Of a stretch of 64,000 nucleotides of DNA, positions 31,826 to 40,450 are shown piece after piece; position 1 is the stretch's first letter; every line of letters starts with the position of its first letter. The stretch comes from Mesorhizobium sp. M4B.F.Ca.ET.058.02.1.1. GTDB lineage: Bacteria > Pseudomonadota > Alphaproteobacteria > Rhizobiales > Rhizobiaceae. The notes beneath the pieces were generated by a model. The model worked only from the letters and a program-made list of their open reading frames with translations. It had not been told where the DNA came from and made no database searches. The DNA lies in assembly GCF_003952505.1 (NCBI RefSeq), contig NZ_CP034450.1:3658001-3722000 (forward strand), in the 5' to 3' direction. A program made the position numbers and the translations under genes.

Positions 31826-33298
31826 TCAGGAAACCGGCGAGAACTTTGCCGAGACGAGCTGGAAGGGCAGCGCGCCATAGGTGGCGACGGCGGTCTCGTC
31901 GTCCCAGGTGCGGAACTGGCGGGATGGCCGCGCCTCGATCACCAGCGTGCGCCCCGCCGTCGGGTCGAGCGCCACCTTGCCGCGAAAGCGCAGCACCCGT
32001 TCCCCGCCGGCGCGGCTGATCGCCAGGGCGCGCAAACGGGCGACATGCCGGCCATCGCCGTTGATCTCCATCTCGATGCGGCGGCGCACCGGCGGCACGG
32101 CGATCCGGACCGTCACCTCCAGCATGATCTCGCCGCCCGGGTCGGGACAGTCGATTGCCTGCGACATCACGAAAGGCGATGATTGCCTCTTCGCCCTACC
32201 GGCCACCCGCCTGCCGCGCCAGACGACGTCCGGTTCGTCCTGGCGCAACCGGCCGCTCTTGCGCTTCAGCCGCAACTGCTTGGCAAAGCCGCGCGACAGC
32301 CAGGTAAGCCCGCCGAAATCGGTGCGCGGCTTGGCCTGCAGCACTGAGGACAGCCGCGACAGGCCGGAGCGGTCGGCCATGCCGATCGTGCTGGCGAGCA
32401 CCGTTTCAGGCACCGGAATGCCGATCTCGAGCGCGAGATAGGAGAGCGCCACCGCAGCGGCGACGGCGAGGCCGCGCCTGGCGATCACGTCGAGGAACAC
32501 ATCCCAGTCGGCGTCGCCGCCGCGGATGGCCACCGCGCAATCGACGAGCCAGTCGCTGTGGGTGTGGGCATCGAGCCCACCATGCGCGATGGCGAGCGCG
32601 ATGCGGTCGGCGGGCGACGGCACGAAGACGCCGACACCGCTGAATTCCGCCGCGATCGCCCGCCGCCAGATCGCCAGGTCATCCTCGGCGCTTTGCTGCG
32701 ATCCGTCATAGGCGAGCTGGTGCAGGTCGATGTCGCCGAAATTGCCCTTGAAGAAATTCATCGAGCGCAGCGATGCCAGCCGTGTCCTAAGATAGGACGG
32801 GCTGACGCCACTGGCGATCTGCCAGTCGCGATCGCGCAGCACGTCGAAGGCAACCCGCATGTGCTGAGGGCGCACCAATATGTCGATGTCGTGCGCCACG
32901 CGGCCACGCTGCGCGGAGGCATTCACGGCGATGCGGCTGGCGCCCTTGATCAGCATGACCGGCGCGCCCGCCTCCACCATTGCCTTCAGCGCCGGCTCGG
33001 CTTCGCGCATGGCCAGGCGCGACTTGGTCCACAGCATCTTCTGCAGCCCGACAAGACGCGGATAGGCGGGATGGGCGGCGAGCTTGCGGCCGAAGCGGTC
33101 GGAAATCGCGGCGAGCAGCCGGTGCTCCCGGAAGGAGACGAGGTCGATATCGTTTTCGTCCAGCCAGCGCGCCGCGTGCGGGCTGGCCGCGTCCTCGTCG
33201 GGCAGGAGCGCGGCCTTGAGCAACTGGTCGAGCTTGCCGGTCGGCCAGGACCAGCCATAGTCGGGAAAGCGACGGCCGATGGAACGTATCCTGGCCAT
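31826..33298 (-). CDS. NTP_transf_5-type nucleotidyltransferase
   Basis: 490 residues. The nucleotidyltransferase core (about 60-320) has the motif VMLIKGASRIAVNASAQRG (about 112) and HDIDILVRPQ (about 136) with the Asp-x-Asp metal pair, then GDIDLHQLAYDG (about 187). This is the family often annotated as uncharacterised nucleotidyltransferase. A C-terminal beta-rich region of 170 residues (from DVVWRGRR) looks like a carbohydrate- or binding-type sandwich. The gene is the last of five overlapping minus-strand genes (PqqD-like, HprK-like, two glycosyltransferases), overlapping the preceding gene by one base. In such clusters it co-occurs with HprK-like kinases; the target is unknown. Confidence 0.8.
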   Translation of the reverse strand: MARIRSIGRRFPDYGWSWPTGKLDQLLKAALLPDEDAASPHAARWLDENDIDLVSFREHRLLAAISDRFGRKLAAHPAYPRLVGLQKMLWTKSRLAMREAEPALKAMVEAGAPVMLIKGASRIAVNASAQRGRVAHDIDILVRPQHMRVAFDVLRDRDWQIASGVSPSYLRTRLASLRSMNFFKGNFGDIDLHQLAYDGSQQSAEDDLAIWRRAIAAEFSGVGVFVPSPADRIALAIAHGGLDAHTHSDWLVDCAVAIRGGDADWDVFLDVIARRGLAVAAAVALSYLALEIGIPVPETVLASTIGMADRSGLSRLSSVLQAKPRTDFGGLTWLSRGFAKQLRLKRKSGRLRQDEPDVVWRGRRVAGRAKRQSSPFVMSQAIDCPDPGGEIMLEVTVRIAVPPVRRRIEMEINGDGRHVARLRALAISRAGGERVLRFRGKVALDPTAGRTLVIEARPSRQFRTWDDETAVATYGALPFQLVSAKFSPVS

Positions 33299-33972
33299 CA
33301 GCCGGAGCCCGGTCTGTTCTGCGCGCGGCGCAGCATGGCGGCGCGGACCACCTCCAGATAGCCGCGGTCGCGCGCGTCGCGCCCATAGGACAGGCTGCCG
33401 GGCCTGATGCGCCTGAGCGCCAGCACCTCGTCCAGCATGTCGAGCACGAAGCCCGCCTCGCGCGCCCTGGCGATCCAGTCGATCATCTCGCCGCGGCCAC
33501 CCGGCGGATCGACGATCGGCCCGACCGCCTCGGCTACCTCGCGGCGGATCACCATCGTCGTGCGAAACCAGCCGGGCGTCGTGCCCGCCTCCGGCAGATC
33601 GGGCCGGTCCTGGCGGAAATTGCGGGCATGGGCGAAAACGCCCGCCGTTCGCGGAGATCGTTCAAGATGCGCGAGCTGCAATTCGATCTTGGTCGGCAGC
33701 CACAGGTCATCAGCGTCGAGCGTCGCGATAAACGGCGTCGACAGCGCCGCCATGCCCCTGGTCGTCGCGTTGCCGGGGCCGGCGTTGTCCTGGCGCAGCA
33801 GCCTGACGGGGATGTCCGCAATGGCGATCGCCGCCTCGAGATCATCGGTCGAACCGTCGTCGACGACCACGACGGCGTCGGCGGCGATCGTCTGTGCGGC
33901 CACCGAGCGCAGCGTATCGGCAATGGTGGCGGCCGCGTTGAAGGCCGGAATGACGACGCCGTAGCCAGCCAT
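33298..33972 (-). CDS. Family 2 glycosyltransferase
   Basis: 224 residues of the GT-A fold. VVIPAFNAAATIADTLRS at the start, VVVVDDGSTDDLEAAI (about 33-48) and FIATLDADDLWLP (about 85-97) with the Asp-x-Asp are the nucleotide-sugar motifs. The start at 33972 overlaps the stop of the upstream glycosyltransferase by one base (TGATG); an upstream ATG at 33987 is possible. A cytoplasmic enzyme without membrane segments, transferring a sugar to an unknown acceptor. Confidence 0.85.
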   Translation of the reverse strand: MAGYGVVIPAFNAAATIADTLRSVAAQTIAADAVVVVDDGSTDDLEAAIAIADIPVRLLRQDNAGPGNATTRGMAALSTPFIATLDADDLWLPTKIELQLAHLERSPRTAGVFAHARNFRQDRPDLPEAGTTPGWFRTTMVIRREVAEAVGPIVDPPGGRGEMIDWIARAREAGFVLDMLDEVLALRRIRPGSLSYGRDARDRGYLEVVRAAMLRRAQNRPGSG

Positions 33973-34724
33973 CACATGAACCGCCAATCCGCGAGATCCT
34001 TGACCTCAAAGATCTTGTCGATCGCACACAGCGACGGGTCGGCCCGGCGCCGCTTCATCGATTTGTGGAGCGCGCGCATGAACTCGCGACGGGGAATATC
34101 AGGCTCCCTGGTCATGTTGCCGGGATGGCGCCTGTAATAGAGCCCCACCGTATCGGGCATGACATAGTTCGGGCCGCTCTCGAAAGTGCGCAGCAGGTAG
34201 TCGGTGTCTTCGGCCTGGCTGAAATCGGTGTCGAAGTCACCGATCCGATCGACAAGCCGGCGCGTGAATATCCCGGCCGACAGATGGATTCCGCGCACGG
34301 TCACGCAGTGGCTGTCGGCCGCCGGCTCCAGCGTCTCGTCGTCCAGATTGTCGGCCAGGGTCATCAGCGAATAGGTCAGATCGAGACCGGGATCGGTTTC
34401 GAAAAGCGCCAAATCGTCCTTGAAGCGGCCGGCCGGCGAGATGTCGTCCGAATCGAGGAAGGAGACAAAGCCGGTCTGTGGCAGGAGCTGCCGGAGGCCG
34501 GCGTTGCGCGCCTTGGTGACGCCCATATTGGGCTGCTGGAAAAGGCGGATGCAGGATGCTTCGCTCATCATCGAGCGCACCACCTCAACCGAGCCGTCGA
34601 TCGAGCCGTCGTCGATGACGATGATGTCGAGATCGGCACCGTCGCGCTGCCTGAGCAGCGAGCGCAGCGCAGCGCCGACATACTTCTCGCGGTTATGGAC
34701 TGGCATAATCACGCTCAGCTTCAT
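33972..34724 (-). CDS. Family 2 glycosyltransferase
   Basis: 250 residues, GT-A. It begins MKLSVIMPVHNREKYVGAAL, followed by IIVIDDGSIDGSVEVV (about 34-49) and VSFLDSDDISPAG (about 86-98) with the metal-binding Asp pair. The ATG at 34724 overlaps the stop of the HprK-like gene (ATGA), hence translational coupling; a longer frame without similarity extends upstream. Together with the next gene it suggests sugar transfer onto a common acceptor, possibly one prepared by the neighbouring PqqD-like and kinase-like proteins. Confidence 0.85.
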   Translation of the reverse strand: MKLSVIMPVHNREKYVGAALRSLLRQRDGADLDIIVIDDGSIDGSVEVVRSMMSEASCIRLFQQPNMGVTKARNAGLRQLLPQTGFVSFLDSDDISPAGRFKDDLALFETDPGLDLTYSLMTLADNLDDETLEPAADSHCVTVRGIHLSAGIFTRRLVDRIGDFDTDFSQAEDTDYLLRTFESGPNYVMPDTVGLYYRRHPGNMTREPDIPRREFMRALHKSMKRRRADPSLCAIDKIFEVKDLADWRFM

Positions 34725-35772
34725 GCGGAGCCTCGCGCGAGAAACCCGGAAACCGTGGCAGCGATTTCCTCCGGGCGCGTCCCCAGCGCCAGACGGTAGC
34801 ATGGCAAAAGGCGGGTAAGATCGCTGAAAAAGCGAAAGCCGCCTTCGCGCTCGCCAGGCATCTGAGCGATGCCGGACGGCGCCAACGCAATCATGGCGTC
34901 CTTGCGCGACAAGGGCATGACCGAGCTTGTCCCACCACCGCCGATATGTGGCACCACCAGCGCTGCGATGTCCAGACTTGCCGGCAGCGGCCGGGGCGCG
35001 ACGTCATCGATGCGGAACGGATGCTTGCCCTGCCAGTTCAGCGGACCATAGGATTTCAGCCGCTGCCTGAGGCCAAGCCGTTCGAAACCCTCGGGATCCT
35101 GCTTGAGGGTGGAAAACAGCGGATACGCCCTTACCCCTCATCCGTCCTGTCGATAAGCACATAGTCGTCGCCGACGCTGTCCAGGCCGTTGAGCAGGCCG
35201 GCGACGACGGTTCCCGATTTTCCTGCTCCACCGGCGCCGGCAAGCAGGATGCCCTTGCCGCCGATGCCCAGCGTGCCGGCATGCGCAAGCCGCATGCCGC
35301 GCGCCGCATAGTCCCAATGCAGAAAGGCGCGCAGCGGCGCGCCCGGCTCCCAGGGCGGAAAGCCGTCGGCGGAGCGCATCAATTGCGCGCCGACACGGCG
35401 CTTGGGATCGTATACCTGCCAAAAGTCGAGGTCGTGGAAGTAGCAGCCGCGCAGCCCGGCGTCGGCAAGCCGGGAGGCAAAGGCGTGCGGGGCGAACTGC
35501 GCCTCGCCCCATTTCGCCGGAGCGGCGATGTTACCGATGCCTGGATGGGCGATGAGGATGCGGCATACGCCCGACGCTTGCCGATCACCGCCGGCCGGAA
35601 CAAGGCCGCGGTCGATGGCATCCGCGAAGGGGCCGGGCGTGAGATGGACAGCCATGTCCAACCGGGGCAAACGGACATCCCGCGTGACGGAATAGCTGGC
35701 GGCCGCACTCTCGGCCATGGCCAAAACCTGGCGCGCATAGTCCGGCAAGCTTCCGAGGGTGACCTGCGACAT
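34721..35772 (-). CDS. HPr kinase-like (HprK-related) protein, frameshifted
   Basis: The first part (MSQVTLGSLPDYARQVLAMA to YVLIDRTDEG) stops at TAA 35133-35131; the sense continues at VRAYPLFSTLKQDPEGFERL and runs to 34721 if one G is added to the four-G run at 35134-35137. The rebuilt protein has about 350 residues with a P-loop GILLAGAGGAGKSGTVVAGL (about 190-209) and GLDSVGDDYVLI with the HPr-kinase-type Asp pair (about 212-223), so it resembles the HprK-related kinases found with PqqD proteins. GTG at 35826 overlapping the preceding stop (GTGA) is an alternative start. No HPr gene is near, so the substrate must be something else; in lasso-peptide systems such kinases phosphorylate the precursor. 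Confidence 0.77.
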
Positions 35773-35822
35773 GGCCTGTTCCCGCGCACCGTCGCCAATG
35801 CGATCGGCCGCTCCCGGATGTC

Positions 35823-36254
35823 TCACGACGCGTGCTTGACCGCGGGCCAGCCCAAGGGTTCCTCGACCTCATGGATCGGATCGACCATGATGAGATCGGC
35901 AAGATCGTCGTGGACGTCAACCTTCAGGGGTTCGCGGGACGCGGCAAGCTCGGCCGGCAGCCCGCTCGGCAGCGGCTGCGCCGACGCATCCGGGGCTGGC
36001 GCCAGCAGGCCGAAATCGATGAGCTGCGCGATGAAGCTTTCGAGTTCGACCAATCCTATCGTCGCCGTTCCCGCGGCCAGTCCGACCAGCACCGGGGCCG
36101 GCACGCCCAACGACAGCGCTTGCCAGATACGGCTGCCCGTATCGGAGAAACCGAAATACCTTCCGCTCGCGAGATCAAGCACGACGGCTTCGCCGTCGAA
36201 GGATTCAAAAACGATATCCTTGCTCGCAACAGCGTAGACATCCGCTGCCCGCAT
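35823..36254 (-). CDS. PqqD family peptide-binding protein
   Basis: 143 residues. The first 95 fit the PqqD winged-helix fold: IVFESFDGEAVVLDLASGRY followed by FGFSDTGSRIWQAL and a C-terminal helix ELESFIAQLIDFGLLAP. PqqD-like proteins bind leader peptides of ribosomally made peptides and present them to modifying enzymes, or sit beside HprK-like kinases in polysaccharide-type clusters. The remaining 45 residues are low-complexity and charged. The stop overlaps a GTG of the kinase gene. It is the first gene of the cluster; the promoter must lie in 36255-36395, downstream of gbcB, where no precursor peptide gene with a start codon was found. Confidence 0.78.
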   Translation of the reverse strand: MRAADVYAVASKDIVFESFDGEAVVLDLASGRYFGFSDTGSRIWQALSLGVPAPVLVGLAAGTATIGLVELESFIAQLIDFGLLAPAPDASAQPLPSGLPAELAASREPLKVDVHDDLADLIMVDPIHEVEEPLGWPAVKHAS

Positions 36255-36395: not shown

Positions 36396-37505
36396 TCAGG
36401 CCTCGATTTCCAGCGCCGTCATCGGCCTCGAGCAGCAGGCGAGAATGAAGCCGTCGGCGATCTCGTGATCGAGGATGCCGCCATTGTGACTCATCTCGAC
36501 CTCGCCGGACACCTTCTTCACCTTGCAGGTGCCGCACAGGCCGAATTCGCAGGCGGCCGGGATCCTGACGCCAGAGGCGCGCGCCGTCTGCAGCACGGTT
36601 TGCCCGGCGATGCATTCGGCATCGACATCGGAAAGTGAAAAGCGAACCGGCGTCGCGGCCTCGACGGGCATCTCGATGCCGCCGTCGGTCGGCAGCGCGA
36701 ACGGCGCCGGCACTTCCTCCACCACCGGCGCGGCAAAGCTTTCCTGGTGGTATTTGGCCATGTCGAAGCCGGCGGCCTCCAGCATCTGCCGGACGGCGCG
36801 CATGAACGGGTCGGGGCCGCAGCAGAAGATTTCCCGCTCGCGGTAGTCAGGTGCCAGAAGCGGAAGCCTTATGGCGTCGATCCGCCCCATGTGACCGAAC
36901 CAGCCCTCGCGGATGGAGCGTTCCTCGATCATGAAGCCGAGCGACAGGCCGGGCATGCGACTGCCCAGCAATTCAAGCTCCTTGCGGAAGATGATCTCTT
37001 CCGCCCTGCGCGCGCAGTTGACGAAACCGACATCGGTCCAGGGCGCGCAGTCGTTCAGCCAGCGCAGCATCGACATCATCGGCGTGACGCCGGAGCCGGC
37101 AGAGATGAACAGGTACTTGGCCGCCGGATGGCTGTGCAGCGAGAAATCGCCGGCCGGGCCATAGGCCTTCACATGGGCGCCGGGCTTGAGATTGTCGAAC
37201 ATCCAGCGCGTGCCGATGCTGCCGGCCTGCGCCTTCACCGTCACCGCGATCGAGAACGGCCGCGACGGCGACGAGGACATCGTGTAGGTGCGCATCAGCG
37301 GTCCGTCGGCGACCGGCAGTTCCAGCGTCACGAACTGGCCGGGCTTGTAGCGGAACCAGGTCTGGTTGTCGGAGCGGAAGGTGAAGGTCTTGACGTCCGG
37401 CGCCTCGTCGCTGACGCCGATCACCTCCAGCACCTGCAGCCGGTCGTTCCAGGGCGCCATCTCGTCGAGATGGCGATAGAGGCCGAGATCGGTCATCGCG
37501 TTCAT
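36396..37505 (-). CDS. gbcB: Glycine betaine demethylase reductase subunit (GbcB-like)
   Basis: 369 residues. An N-terminal ferredoxin-NADP-reductase module with FAD motif RTYTMSSSPSRPF (about 74-86) and NAD motif FISAGSGVTPMMSML (about 133-147), then a C-terminal plant-type 2Fe-2S ferredoxin (CEFGLCGTCK and a final Cys in ILACCSRP). This is the architecture of the reductase that feeds electrons to the Rieske oxygenase GbcA, which removes a methyl group from betaine using NADH and O2. ATG 37505 has AAGGA upstream. gbcA lies 69 bp upstream on the same strand, so the pair is one transcript. Carnitine (CntB) or stachydrine reductases look similar; betaine is favoured by context. Confidence 0.85.
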   Translation of the reverse strand: MNAMTDLGLYRHLDEMAPWNDRLQVLEVIGVSDEAPDVKTFTFRSDNQTWFRYKPGQFVTLELPVADGPLMRTYTMSSSPSRPFSIAVTVKAQAGSIGTRWMFDNLKPGAHVKAYGPAGDFSLHSHPAAKYLFISAGSGVTPMMSMLRWLNDCAPWTDVGFVNCARRAEEIIFRKELELLGSRMPGLSLGFMIEERSIREGWFGHMGRIDAIRLPLLAPDYREREIFCCGPDPFMRAVRQMLEAAGFDMAKYHQESFAAPVVEEVPAPFALPTDGGIEMPVEAATPVRFSLSDVDAECIAGQTVLQTARASGVRIPAACEFGLCGTCKVKKVSGEVEMSHNGGILDHEIADGFILACCSRPMTALEIEA

Positions 37506-37573
37506 CCCTTGGTCCTTTTCATTCTGCACATGTCGTGATGCCAAAACCGCTCAACACTTTTGGGCGCCATGTG

Positions 37574-38821
37574 CTAGGCAACACTGCGCAGCGTCGGCTG
37601 GCCGCCTTCGGCAAGGCGCGGGCCCATGAAGGAGGCGTACCATTCGACGAACTGGATGACGCCGCCCTCATGCTGCTCCGAATAGGGGCCGGGTTCATAG
37701 GCCGGCGACAGGATGCCGAAAGCATTTTCCTCGACGATGCGGCGATCCTGGTCGTTGGTCTCGGTCCAGACATGGGTGAGTTCGGCAAGATCGTAGTCGA
37801 CGCCTTCCACCGCATCCTTGTGGACCAGCCATTTCGTCGTCACCGCGGTTTCGGTGGCGCTGATCGGCAGCACCCGGAAGGTGACGGCATGGTCGATCAG
37901 GATATGGTTCCAGGTCGTCGGATAGTGGTAATGCATCAGCGTGCCGATGCGGTCCGCCGAGACGCTCGTGGATAGGTTCTTCCTCACCGCGCGCTTGCCG
38001 CTCATCGTGTAGCTGACGGCATCGCGCAAGAGCGGGGCGCGGGTGGCGCGATACTGACCGGCGGGGTCTATGCGGAACTTGCTCGGCAGGCCCGCCGCCT
38101 CGCATTTCGCCCAATGCGCCTGCATCTCGGGATCGCTTTCGGCACCATGCACGCCGGTCACCGTCGGCGCCTCGGGAAAGGTCTTGCAGAGTTCGGGATG
38201 ATTGCCGGCGCAGTGGTAGCACTCGCGGTTGTTTTCCCAGACCAGCTTCCAGTTGCCCTTCTCGACGATGGTCGATTCGAAAGCGACCTTCGCCTCAGTC
38301 AATCGATGCGGCAGGAGATAGGGTTCGATCATGGCGCGCATCGGCGCAAAATCGGCGGGCTCCTTCGCCAGGCAGATGAAGATGTAGCCGCCGACGCTCT
38401 CGCAGGCGACCGGCTTCAGGCCGAACTGGCTCTTGTCGAAGCCATCCGCCATCTGGCGGGCGAACAGCAGCCTGCCGTCGAGTTCGTAGGTCCATTGATG
38501 ATAAGGGCAGACGAGCTTCGCCGCGGTGCCCTTCTCGGCGTTGCAGACGCGGCTGCCGCGATGGCGGCAGGAATTATGGAAGGCGTTGATCCTGCCTTGC
38601 TGGTCGCGGACCAGGACCACCGGATAATCGCCGATCTGCGCGGTGATGTAGCTGCCCGGCTTCGGCAGTTCGCAATCGTGCCCGATGAACAGCCAGTCGC
38701 GATACCAGATTAGTTCCATGTCGAGCTTGAAGTAATCCGGGTCGGTGTAGAAAGGCTGTTCGAGCGAAAAGCCCTGCCTGCGGTTATGCAGGTGCCTCAG
38801 CATGTCGTTGCGCGCATCCAT
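37574..38821 (-). CDS. gbcA: Glycine betaine demethylase Rieske oxygenase (GbcA-like)
   Basis: 415 residues of the aromatic-ring-hydroxylating type. The Rieske centre is Cys-x-His in HNSCRHRGSRVC (about 82-93) and Cys-x2-His in KLVCPYHQWTYEL (about 101-113). The mononuclear iron site lies near NWKLVWENNRECYHCAGNHP (His and His about 210-220), with an Asp or Glu ligand later (ENAFGILSP region). GbcA demethylates glycine betaine to dimethylglycine and formaldehyde in the cytoplasm. The gene is preceded by a cobalamin riboswitch on the same strand. A stachydrine or carnitine substrate cannot be excluded; betaine is favoured because the carnitine operon about 17 kb away would produce it. Confidence 0.85.
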   Translation of the reverse strand: MDARNDMLRHLHNRRQGFSLEQPFYTDPDYFKLDMELIWYRDWLFIGHDCELPKPGSYITAQIGDYPVVLVRDQQGRINAFHNSCRHRGSRVCNAEKGTAAKLVCPYHQWTYELDGRLLFARQMADGFDKSQFGLKPVACESVGGYIFICLAKEPADFAPMRAMIEPYLLPHRLTEAKVAFESTIVEKGNWKLVWENNRECYHCAGNHPELCKTFPEAPTVTGVHGAESDPEMQAHWAKCEAAGLPSKFRIDPAGQYRATRAPLLRDAVSYTMSGKRAVRKNLSTSVSADRIGTLMHYHYPTTWNHILIDHAVTFRVLPISATETAVTTKWLVHKDAVEGVDYDLAELTHVWTETNDQDRRIVEENAFGILSPAYEPGPYSEQHEGGVIQFVEWYASFMGPRLAEGGQPTLRSVA

Positions 38822-38944
38822 GTCCTGTCCCTCGCGTCGGTCGCATCAAGGACTGAACTGGTGGTGATGGAGAGGAACGGCGGCCACCGGCAGGGCCAGG
38901 CGCGCGCCATCCGCCTCTTGACCGCCCACCGCGATCAGTCGAGC

Positions 38945-39130
38945 CTAGAAATCTCGGGCTGGTTTCCGGGCTCTGGAGTGCCCTTGCGGGCGGGCGCGAC
39001 ACCTTCCCAGGCCAGATGGCCCAGTGGTCTCCCGTCGCGACTTGAACTCCACCACCGTTGCGGGGGCAGCGCCGGAATTTGACCGGCTTCCCAATTCTCC
39101 GTCCCGTCGTCACGGGTCGGCACCTGAGAT
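38945..39130 (-). promoter_or_regulatory. Cobalamin riboswitch upstream of gbcA
   Basis: Read on the minus strand this has the cobalamin aptamer landmarks in order: GGTGCC (39123-39118), GGGAAGCCGGTC/GCCGG pairing, the highly conserved core GCTGCCCCCGCAAC (39070-39057), and the B12 box AGCCCGGAAACCAGCCC (38972-38956). gbcA starts 135 bp downstream on the same strand. The expression platform between 38822 and 38944 is GC rich, with pairing GGCGG/CCGCC possible but no T run, so control of translation or Rho-dependent termination is more likely than an intrinsic terminator. Binding of cobalamin is expected to lower expression. Confidence 0.85.
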
Positions 39131-39644: not shown

Positions 39645-39851
39645 ATGAAAAAGATTGTTCTTACTGCCGCCGCCCTTCTGGCCATTTCCGGCAGCGCCTT
39701 TGCTGGTGGCAGCGACCACTACGGTTCGAACGGTGCCAATCAGCCCGCCGCTGCCGTCGACAGCTCGTACACGGCTTCGGTCAAGAAGTCGGAACCGGCC
39801 GCTCAGACGCCGGCACAGGGCTCGGACCGCAACCTGTTCGGCAACAACTAA
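39645..39851 (+). CDS. DUF680-type small exported protein 1
   Basis: 68 residues. A Sec signal (MKKIVLTAAALLAISGSAFA) with cleavage near residue 20 leaves a 48-residue mature peptide, hydrophilic, with GGSDHYGSNGANQP and the closing EGSDRNLFG-like QGSDRNLFGNN. This is the first of three similar consecutive genes. GGAG precedes the ATG at 39645. Function is unknown for the family; small size and export suggest an envelope or stress role. A hairpin lies right after it. Confidence 0.8.
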   Translation: MKKIVLTAAALLAISGSAFAGGSDHYGSNGANQPAAAVDSSYTASVKKSEPAAQTPAQGSDRNLFGNN

Positions 39852-39856
39852 CACAC

Positions 39857-39896
39857 GATCCCTGACCGCGGTGGGCGATGCCCGCCGCTCGGGATC
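39857..39896 (+). other. Hairpin between DUF680 genes 1 and 2
   Basis: The outer GATCCC/GGGATC pairs enclose an inner GCGGTGGGC/GCCCGCCGC stem (one wobble) with a GAT loop, 5 bp after the first DUF680 stop. There is no T tract, so it may protect or attenuate a common transcript rather than end it. Confidence 0.6.
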
Positions 39897-39919
39897 CTCA
39901 GAAATTCAGGAACACTAAG

Positions 39920-40129
39920 ATGAAGAAAATCATCCTTGCCACCGCAGCCCTCCTGGCCATCTCGGGCGGCGCTTTCGCAGCCGGCAGCGACCACTTCGGT
40001 TCCGACGGTGCCAACCAGCCGGCCACCGCGGTCGACAGCTCGTACACGGCTTCGATCAAGCAGTCGCAGCCGGCCGCCGAGAAGCCCGCCGACCAGGGCA
40101 GCGACCGCAACCTCTTCGGCAACAACTAG
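39920..40129 (+). CDS. DUF680-type small exported protein 2
   Basis: 69 residues, closely similar to the preceding protein: signal MKKIILATAALLAISGGAFA, then GSDHFGSDGANQPATAVDSS and the same C-terminal QGSDRNLFGNN. AGGAA precedes the ATG at 39920. It arose by tandem duplication, judged by shared signal, core and end. The gene before it ends 68 bp upstream; one transcript is likely. Confidence 0.8.
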   Translation: MKKIILATAALLAISGGAFAAGSDHFGSDGANQPATAVDSSYTASIKQSQPAAEKPADQGSDRNLFGNN

Positions 40130-40210
40130 GCCGATCCGGACCACGCTCCAACGGAAGATGGACGCGGCGGACAGTCTCGCCGCTCCGATGCAGATTCAGG
40201 AGTACCAGAA

Positions 40211-40450
40211 ATGAAGAAGATTGCTCTTACCGCCGCCGCTCTTTTGATCGCCGCCGGCAGCGCCTATGCCCGCAATGACAATGTTGGCGGGACTGACATT
40301 AATCAGCGGCCGGCCGCCGCCGGCGTCGACACCACCCAGACGTCTTCGACGCGCGACACCAGCTCGCCGGTCTACAAGCTGCTAAACTCGTCGGGCGACG
40401 TTGAGAAGTCCGCCCCTCAGGGCAGCGATCGCAACCTGTTCGGCCGCTAA
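40211..40450 (+). CDS. DUF680-type small exported protein 3, diverged
   Basis: 79 residues, signal MKKIALTAAALLIAAGSAYA; the mature part shares NVGGTDINQRPAA and the terminal QGSDRNLFGR with its two neighbours but has a 10-residue insertion (SSPVYKLLNSSGDVEKS) and lost the GSDHFGS block. AGGAG stands ahead of the ATG at 40211. A strong terminator follows, ending the three-gene set. Confidence 0.8.
   Translation: MKKIALTAAALLIAAGSAYARNDNVGGTDINQRPAAAGVDTTQTSSTRDTSSPVYKLLNSSGDVEKSAPQGSDRNLFGR

Follow-up and report, generated by a model that had tools for sequence, protein, structure and literature searches.

A cobalamin riboswitch ahead of gbcAB-like genes in Mesorhizobium and its probable role as a B12-independent isozyme switch for betaine demethylation

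On the minus strand of the window, by which we mean the whole 64-kb stretch of DNA analysed here (C1:3658001-3722000 of a source genome held in a single contig of 6.46 Mb), a cobalamin riboswitch is followed by two adjacent genes that resemble gbcA and gbcB (Table 1). RF00174 (Cobalamin) is the single Rfam family to pass its gathering threshold in a cmscan search of the window; that threshold is 31.5 bits, and the match, at 101.5 bits, covers positions 1-189 of the 189-position model, that is, its full length. A chance motif is ruled out by the E-value of 3.2e-24. A first-pass annotation had claimed a cobalamin riboswitch at 38945-39130 and had named a covariance search among the ways to check it; the search returned a match and not a blank, and the hallmark core and B12 box that the annotation had picked out both lie, as it had said, on the strand of the gene. 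Its spacing of 135 bp between riboswitch and gene has to be corrected, as we measure 118 nt from the last base of the aptamer to the gbcA-like start codon at 38821. Translation of the gbcB-like gene probably starts at an ATG later than position 37544. Just upstream of the riboswitch unit and divergent from it (39645-40450, plus strand), three tandem paralogous genes encode small proteins that each carry a DUF680 domain (Pfam). Positions 31826-36254 (minus strand) hold genes for a PqqD-like protein and an NTP_transf_5 protein together with ORFs that read as glycosyltransferase-like, a cassette suggestive of a role in modifying a peptide or a polysaccharide.

Table 1. Features of the riboswitch unit, in window coordinates
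Feature	Position	Strand	Evidence
Cobalamin riboswitch aptamer, RF00174	38940-39142	minus	cmscan, 101.5 bits, E 3.2e-24
Aptamer core including the L5 loop, GCTGCCCCCGCAAC	39057-39070	minus	sequence reading, aligned to the RF00174 model
B12 box, AGCCCGGAAACCAGCC	38957-38972	minus	sequence reading, aligned to the RF00174 model
P13-type hairpin GATCGC-GGTGG-GCGGTC, directly 3′ of the aptamer	38920-38936	minus	covariation in relatives
Hairpin CCAGTTCAGTCC...GGACAGGACATGG over the Shine-Dalgarno sequence and start codon	38818-38861	minus	local folds
gbcA-like Rieske group-Vb quaternary-amine N-demethylase, 415 aa	37574-38821	minus	Pfam, NCBIfam and PDB matches
gbcB-like ferredoxin-NAD reductase, three domains	36396-37544	minus	Pfam, NCBIfam

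What reaction do these genes encode? The gbcA-like protein consists of a Rieske and a Ring_hydroxyl_A domain (Pfam), and by far its best model is the NCBIfam GbcA family NF058607, at 522.3 bits; the best model for the gbcB-like protein is NCBIfam GbcB (NF058606), at 364.1 bits. Both scores fall under the curated cut-offs, which are 670 and 500 bits, respectively, so that neither protein counts as a member of its equivalog family. The first-pass description of a gbcA-like Rieske gene therefore stands as a best-model assignment and does not extend to membership of the GbcA family. The nearest solved structures are 3n0q (553 bits) and the proline-betaine demethylase Stc2 (541 bits), to which the protein is 58% identical. 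According to the accessible sections of PMC7948474 and PMC10952381, group Vb Rieske oxygenases combine Rieske and catalytic domains with Asn in place of CntA Tyr203 and a Cys-X-X-Cys at the iron site, and the Asn marks enzymes that demethylate glycine or proline betaine (PMC7948474). Alignment and Pfam place all of these features in the gbcA-like protein, which reads ENNRECYHC where CntA reads DNYMECYHC. Domains, best models, closest structures and the Asn residue thus support the reaction class, betaine N-demethylation, well, and the substrate less so. The closest named relatives of the protein are from Mesorhizobium (93%), and the best 120 of 7867 protein-database matches at E<=1e-60 include no characterised GbcA.

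How might the aptamer act on the genes below it? The hairpin directly 3′ of the aptamer, which with its loop we take to be P13 and L13, is the regulatory hairpin expected of an RF00174 riboswitch, and it covaries: among 44 distinct sequences from relatives 98.9% of cells are paired and four of the six pairs show changes on both sides, against 21-50% paired in slid controls. The search pattern fixes the two inner pairs and skips loci whose B12 box falls outside it, so that the informative pairs are the four outer ones; at locus L147 the pattern is absent. Part of the G-rich loop is complementary to the L5 loop, which is C-rich, and the two would form a kissing loop as in class-I cobalamin riboswitches. 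About 60 nt (60-80 nt) past the aptamer and P13 region, a further hairpin covers the start site. This hairpin is too conserved in sequence among close kin for covariation to be informative. Occlusion of the start site was measured with shuffled upstream sequence as the control. We call a gbcA homologue switch-led when a cobalamin riboswitch lies upstream of it (L and G numbers label loci and genomes). Of 59 switch-led leaders, 52 were more occluded than the mean of their shuffles (0.69 vs 0.58); among 22 leaders of the gene that lack the switch, 5 were (0.50 vs 0.53). Both counts, and the Mann-Whitney test on these leaders, ignore kinship. In the window's own leader occlusion was 0.84 against 0.65 for shuffled sequence, a level that 2 of 30 shuffles reached. 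Folding energies were uninformative, as the whole-leader fold had a z of −1.0 (15 of 100 shuffles were equally good) and local 66-nt folds a mean z of −0.88 over 64 leaders, both barely better than shuffles. Control by an intrinsic terminator is rejected, as no terminator-like site was found on the minus strand between 38700 and 39700. The covarying hairpin, the occluded start sites of switch-led leaders and the missing terminator lead us to conclude that control is probably translational, with cobalamin closing the start site. Repression by cobalamin would follow from the riboswitch family and the occluded start site, and the coupling of ligand binding to the closing of a hairpin 60-80 nt away is putative. 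The leaders of L015, L016 and L017 are longer by about 100 nt between aptamer and gbcA; the added stretch includes an inverted repeat of the CGAAAATCGATTCCGATTTTCG type, and start-site occlusion is weaker in these leaders.

The arrangement recurs among relatives. By a motif search, 58 of the 80 best named relatives have the aptamer core ahead of the gene, at a distance of 230-348 nt from the start codon; Rfam agreed for all 21 motif-positive loci submitted to it and detected no cobalamin riboswitch in any of the 22 motif-negative ones. Switch-led genes occur in Mesorhizobium, Aminobacter, Shinella, Labrys, Sinorhizobium fredii, part of Rhizobium, Pannonibacter, Inquilinus and others, and switch-less ones in a Rhizobium group that includes R. 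phaseoli and R. ruizarguesonis, in Agrobacterium and its near kin, in Sphingomonas paucimobilis and in Ciceribacter lividus. A class-wide sample of 385 genomes contained 28, besides the source genome, with a homologue at E<=1e-90, and the switch lies directly upstream in seven of these (in G405, G404, G227 and G400, which have a second copy of the gene, the check covered one copy); an order-wide sample of 397 genomes contained 44, again besides the source genome, with a homologue at E<=1e-140, 24 of them with the switch. For L178 of G729 the check covered about 500 nt of upstream sequence. Genome G579 carries two gbcA copies (L168, L146), each with its own cobalamin riboswitch, and in G683 (L165/L170) and G806 (L166/L183) one of two copies has it. 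The flanks searched at 15 switch-less loci (L048, L051, L054, L058, L069, L071-L074, L076, L077, L080-L083) hold no gbcB homologue, so that their reductase is either encoded elsewhere or missing. Could the element be a relic, or misdirected, with no control over gbcAB? The aptamer ends 118 nt from the start codon and a search of the minus strand found no sigma-70-like promoter upstream of the unit, both of which such a reading would accommodate. Aptamer, P13 and spacing have, however, been kept across many genera in spite of sequence drift, with compensatory changes, and we find the relic hardly credible.

A B12-dependent counterpart, which may act on the same substrate, is encoded in the same genome, as an isozyme switch would lead one to expect. 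The genome-wide search for mtgB/mttB methyltransferases that the first-pass annotation had recommended brought up six MttB-family genes (PF06253) along with MtgC-, MtgD- and MtgE-like genes. Two of the MttB genes lie at 283-308 kb, in company with genes for an MtgD-like protein (PRK07535, 397 bits, cut-off 259), a betaine-homocysteine-methyltransferase/MtgE-like protein (PRK07534, 571 bits, cut-off 338), an MtgC-like protein whose best model, NF047996, scores 210 bits and so under its cut-off of 370, and a FAD/GcvT-domain protein that resembles sarcosine/dimethylglycine dehydrogenases with no model over cut-off. Four matches to the B12-binding domain PF02310 were found in the genome. One is the MtgC-like protein (at 288.5-289.2 kb) and another, at 1369 kb, is similar to it; the remaining two fall in ORFs of 707 and 519 aa, which from their sequences read as methylmalonyl-CoA mutase and a radical-SAM protein, respectively. 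None of the four is of MetH size, and MetE (PF01717) gave no match in the source genome in a search whose control was positive in 10 of 14 genomes. Since there is no MetE match and no MetH-sized PF02310 protein and MtgC/D/E-like genes are present, methionine is probably synthesised by way of a corrinoid protein shared with betaine demethylation, and complete loss of B12 would then stop methionine synthesis whatever gbcAB does. Such sharing is described for Ruegeria pomeroyi, where, in the available parts of PMC12478193, MtgC and MtgD have a dual use and methionine synthesis and B12-dependent betaine demethylation draw on the same corrinoid protein. Both the gene content of the source genome and the Ruegeria precedent would fit a switch that keeps scarce MtgC-bound corrinoid for methionine synthesis, as opposed to one that replaces B12 in betaine use. 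This account is possible in our view, if rather doubtful: the riboswitch islands of L035 and L036, described below, also carry metE, so that the sparing of methionine synthase cannot explain the switch in general.

The source genome has at least three RF00174 matches, that of the window included; as 150 of the 392 first-look candidates were scored, three is the number found and not a proven total. One of the other two heads cobW, with cobN further on, and the other heads cbtA, cobU and cobO. None of the three heads an mttB gene, and the switch would thus act on the oxygenase arm only. A second Rieske oxygenase gene (L100:7458-8717, which is C1 229,457-230,716, minus strand) also lies near a cobalamin riboswitch; that riboswitch (231525-231718) reads the opposite way, toward cobalt and cob genes, and was rejected as a switch for this gene.

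Does the switch travel with the B12-dependent route? Among the 80 named loci, 50 were chosen for an MttB search of their genomes so as to span switch-led and switch-less ones, and 49 were covered (all but L044). All 28 switch-led genomes have MttB-family genes, as against one of the 21 switch-less ones; 21 of these 28 switch-led assignments rest on Rfam and seven on the motif search alone. Similarly, the counts are 7 of 7 against 10 of 21 in the class sample and 24 of 24 against 8 of 20 in the order sample. As a background for the class, 82 of 385 genomes have an MttB match at E<=1e-30; among genomes without a gbcA match the figure is 64 of 356, on the assumption that the gbcA and MttB surveys drew the same 385 genomes (their labels agree wherever both are known). 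Every one of the 49 named genomes has cobalamin riboswitches somewhere, the 21 switch-less ones 4-7 each, so that the difference lies at the gbcA gene itself. Ciceribacter lividus (L064) has mttB and lacks the switch.

These counts leave kinship aside, as do the Fisher p values calculated from them, which do not count as evidence by themselves. We also placed both traits on a protein tree of 125 gbcA homologues (123 with both traits known; a quick method, with long-branch warnings), from which L146 and L151 were dropped, their proteins being equal to L041 and L072; L138, the second and switch-less copy of G089, is in no tree. MttB is present in the genomes of 60 of 60 switch-led rows and of 21 of 63 switch-less rows. 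The best tree requires 12 changes of switch state, of which at least nine fall on well-supported branches. In nine independent pairs, MttB and the switch differed in the same way in 4.8 pairs on average and in opposite ways in 0.0, with no difference in 4.2, and the median p of the paired sign test was 0.0625, within a range of 0.0156-0.25. A smaller, earlier tree (80 proteins, 78 of them with traits; the quick method again, with the long-branch warnings) had offered four independent pairs and no power. Corrected for phylogeny, the association is suggestive only, and its direction is clean.

The gene neighbourhoods of switch-led gbcAB provide a further view of its company. For example, a 10-kb stretch of Mesorhizobium sp. 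J18 (L036) contains three cobalamin riboswitches (Rfam), which head nrdA, gbcA-gbcB and, facing these, metE; nrdA encodes a class I ribonucleotide reductase (1725 bits, cut-off 965), metE scores 1163 bits over a cut-off of 541, and the gene after nrdA is, from its sequence, probably nrdB. L035 has the same genes, nrdAB, gbcAB and metE, with three switch motifs. Likewise, in L037 a switch with nrdAB is followed by a switch with gbcAB, and in L112 a switch-led partial nrdA diverges from switch-led gbcA. L027 and L041 have nearby a switch-led gene for a TonB receptor that resembles BtuB at a score under cut-off. In G683 and G806 the switch-led gbcAB stands back-to-back with mtgC, with mtgD and a gene for an activase-like protein, which resembles AcsV/RamA at a score under cut-off, further on, and in G475 it is convergent with a dehydrogenase-like gene and an mttB gene. 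Isozyme neighbours are rare: of 156 loci searched, many of them with flanks of only 1.5 kb, nine have nrdA/nrdB matches and two have metE. Where such neighbourhoods occur, the switch-led oxygenase stands beside known B12-independent isozymes or beside the B12-dependent route that it would replace. The first-pass annotation had suggested that the riboswitch may choose between the two betaine routes in the manner of an isozyme switch, and the occurrence of the switch only together with MttB in the tree, along with these neighbours, supports that suggestion. The same neighbours argue against a Rieske enzyme that works in B12 metabolism itself, in corrin or lower-ligand chemistry, under ordinary feedback control. 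The other two riboswitches found in the genome, which head cob and cobalt genes, would suit such an enzyme; the active-site Asn of group-Vb quaternary-amine oxygenases (in the sections of PMC7948474 at hand) and the presence of the gene without a switch in many genomes would not, and we judge this reading very improbable.

We propose, as the probable reading of the locus, that a class-I cobalamin riboswitch represses the translation of gbcAB and so acts as a B12-independent isozyme switch, of the metE and nrdAB type, for betaine demethylation. With adenosylcobalamin plentiful, the start site would be closed and translation of the two-gene unit repressed, and betaine would pass through the B12-dependent MtgB/MttB-MtgC-MtgD methyltransferases encoded in the source genome. 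With B12 or cobalt short, the start site would open and the O2- and NADH-dependent Rieske demethylase would be made, which would take a methyl group off betaine, most likely glycine betaine, without B12 and with release of formaldehyde.

Judged by sequence, glycine betaine is the most likely substrate of the oxygenase and another betaine is possible. Against the GbcA model Stc2 scores 495, the window protein 522, and the switch-led proteins of L118, L119 and L120 score 631, 636 and 654; L163-L167, which are switch-led too, fall among the Stc2/3n0q kin in the protein tree. The switch is thus present on near-canonical GbcA, in the clade of the window protein and on some Stc2/3n0q-like members. 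Proline betaine (stachydrine) or another quaternary amine might then be the substrate under the same switch, with another MttB homologue as the B12-dependent partner and the isozyme logic kept. The nearness of the window protein's score to that of Stc2, the place of L163-L167 in the tree and the six different MttB homologues of the source genome speak for another substrate, whereas the scores of L118-L120, near the GbcA cut-off, and the two sampled rows nearest Stc2 (L174 and L180), both without a switch, speak against it; on balance we think it unlikely. The isozyme switch on gbcAB could also be read more broadly, as a third class of riboswitch-controlled B12-independent isozyme, beside metE and nrdAB, across Alphaproteobacteria. 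Low B12 or cobalt would turn on the O2-dependent Rieske betaine demethylase and shift osmolyte methyl groups from methyl-H4F and methionine to formaldehyde, MtgC would be spared for methionine synthesis, and the riboswitch would be lost where the B12-dependent methyltransferases are lost. For this wider proposal we see the chances as evenly balanced.

The switch shares its RF00174 aptamer family and its logic with the cobalamin riboswitches of metE and nrdAB, beside which it stands in L035 and L036. In contrast to these, it would govern oxidative betaine N-demethylation, and the B12-dependent side of the pair, a corrinoid methyltransferase system, yields methyl-H4F or methionine in place of formaldehyde. 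The GbcAB glycine betaine monooxygenase provides the best NCBIfam models for both subunits of the window and has, like them, adjacent genes, with the window scores lying under the cut-offs; known GbcAB enzymes are controlled by other regulators. The stachydrine demethylase Stc2 (PDB 3vca/4qup), at 58% identity, belongs like the window protein to group Vb, and its two nearest rows in our sample are switch-less. The MtgBCDE betaine methyltransferase and split methionine synthase (PMC12478193, as far as the text was available) has its likeness in the MtgC-, MtgD- and MtgE-like and MttB-family genes of the source genome; in the available text of that paper the word riboswitch appears in a reference title only and gbcAB is not linked to B12 control. 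In the accessible portions of PMC2211319 and PMC3766115, metE and a category of isozymes of B12-dependent enzymes are listed under cobalamin riboswitches, and the words Rieske, betaine and oxygenase have 0 occurrences in the main texts; a metE riboswitch of Mesorhizobium loti is on record in the part of PMC5948670 at hand. The first-pass annotation knew of no described cobalamin riboswitch before a Rieske betaine demethylase, and we likewise found none in the literature searched, much of it available in part (PMC12478193, PMC2211319, PMC3766115, PMC8123684, PMC4465626, PMC5317091, PMC5948670, PMC12456013, PMC9723716); supplementary tables and subscription papers lay outside this search, and an earlier listing is possible. 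The type of switch is thus already known, and its use on betaine demethylation is what that partly available literature did not yield.

Why would such a switch matter? Rhizobia and marine bacteria use betaines, which are abundant, both as osmolytes and as sources of carbon. The B12-dependent betaine route in marine aerobes has been described only recently (PMC12478193, accessible sections). If the proposal holds, the supply of B12 and cobalt would be a control point for betaine use, for oxygen demand and for the fate of one-carbon units, and the reason why cells keep both betaine routes could be tested directly in laboratory strains. Finally, we note that TGTCG half-sites are repeated in four of the five switch-less leaders inspected (L048, L054, L060 and L064), where they perhaps form a transcription-factor site in place of the riboswitch.
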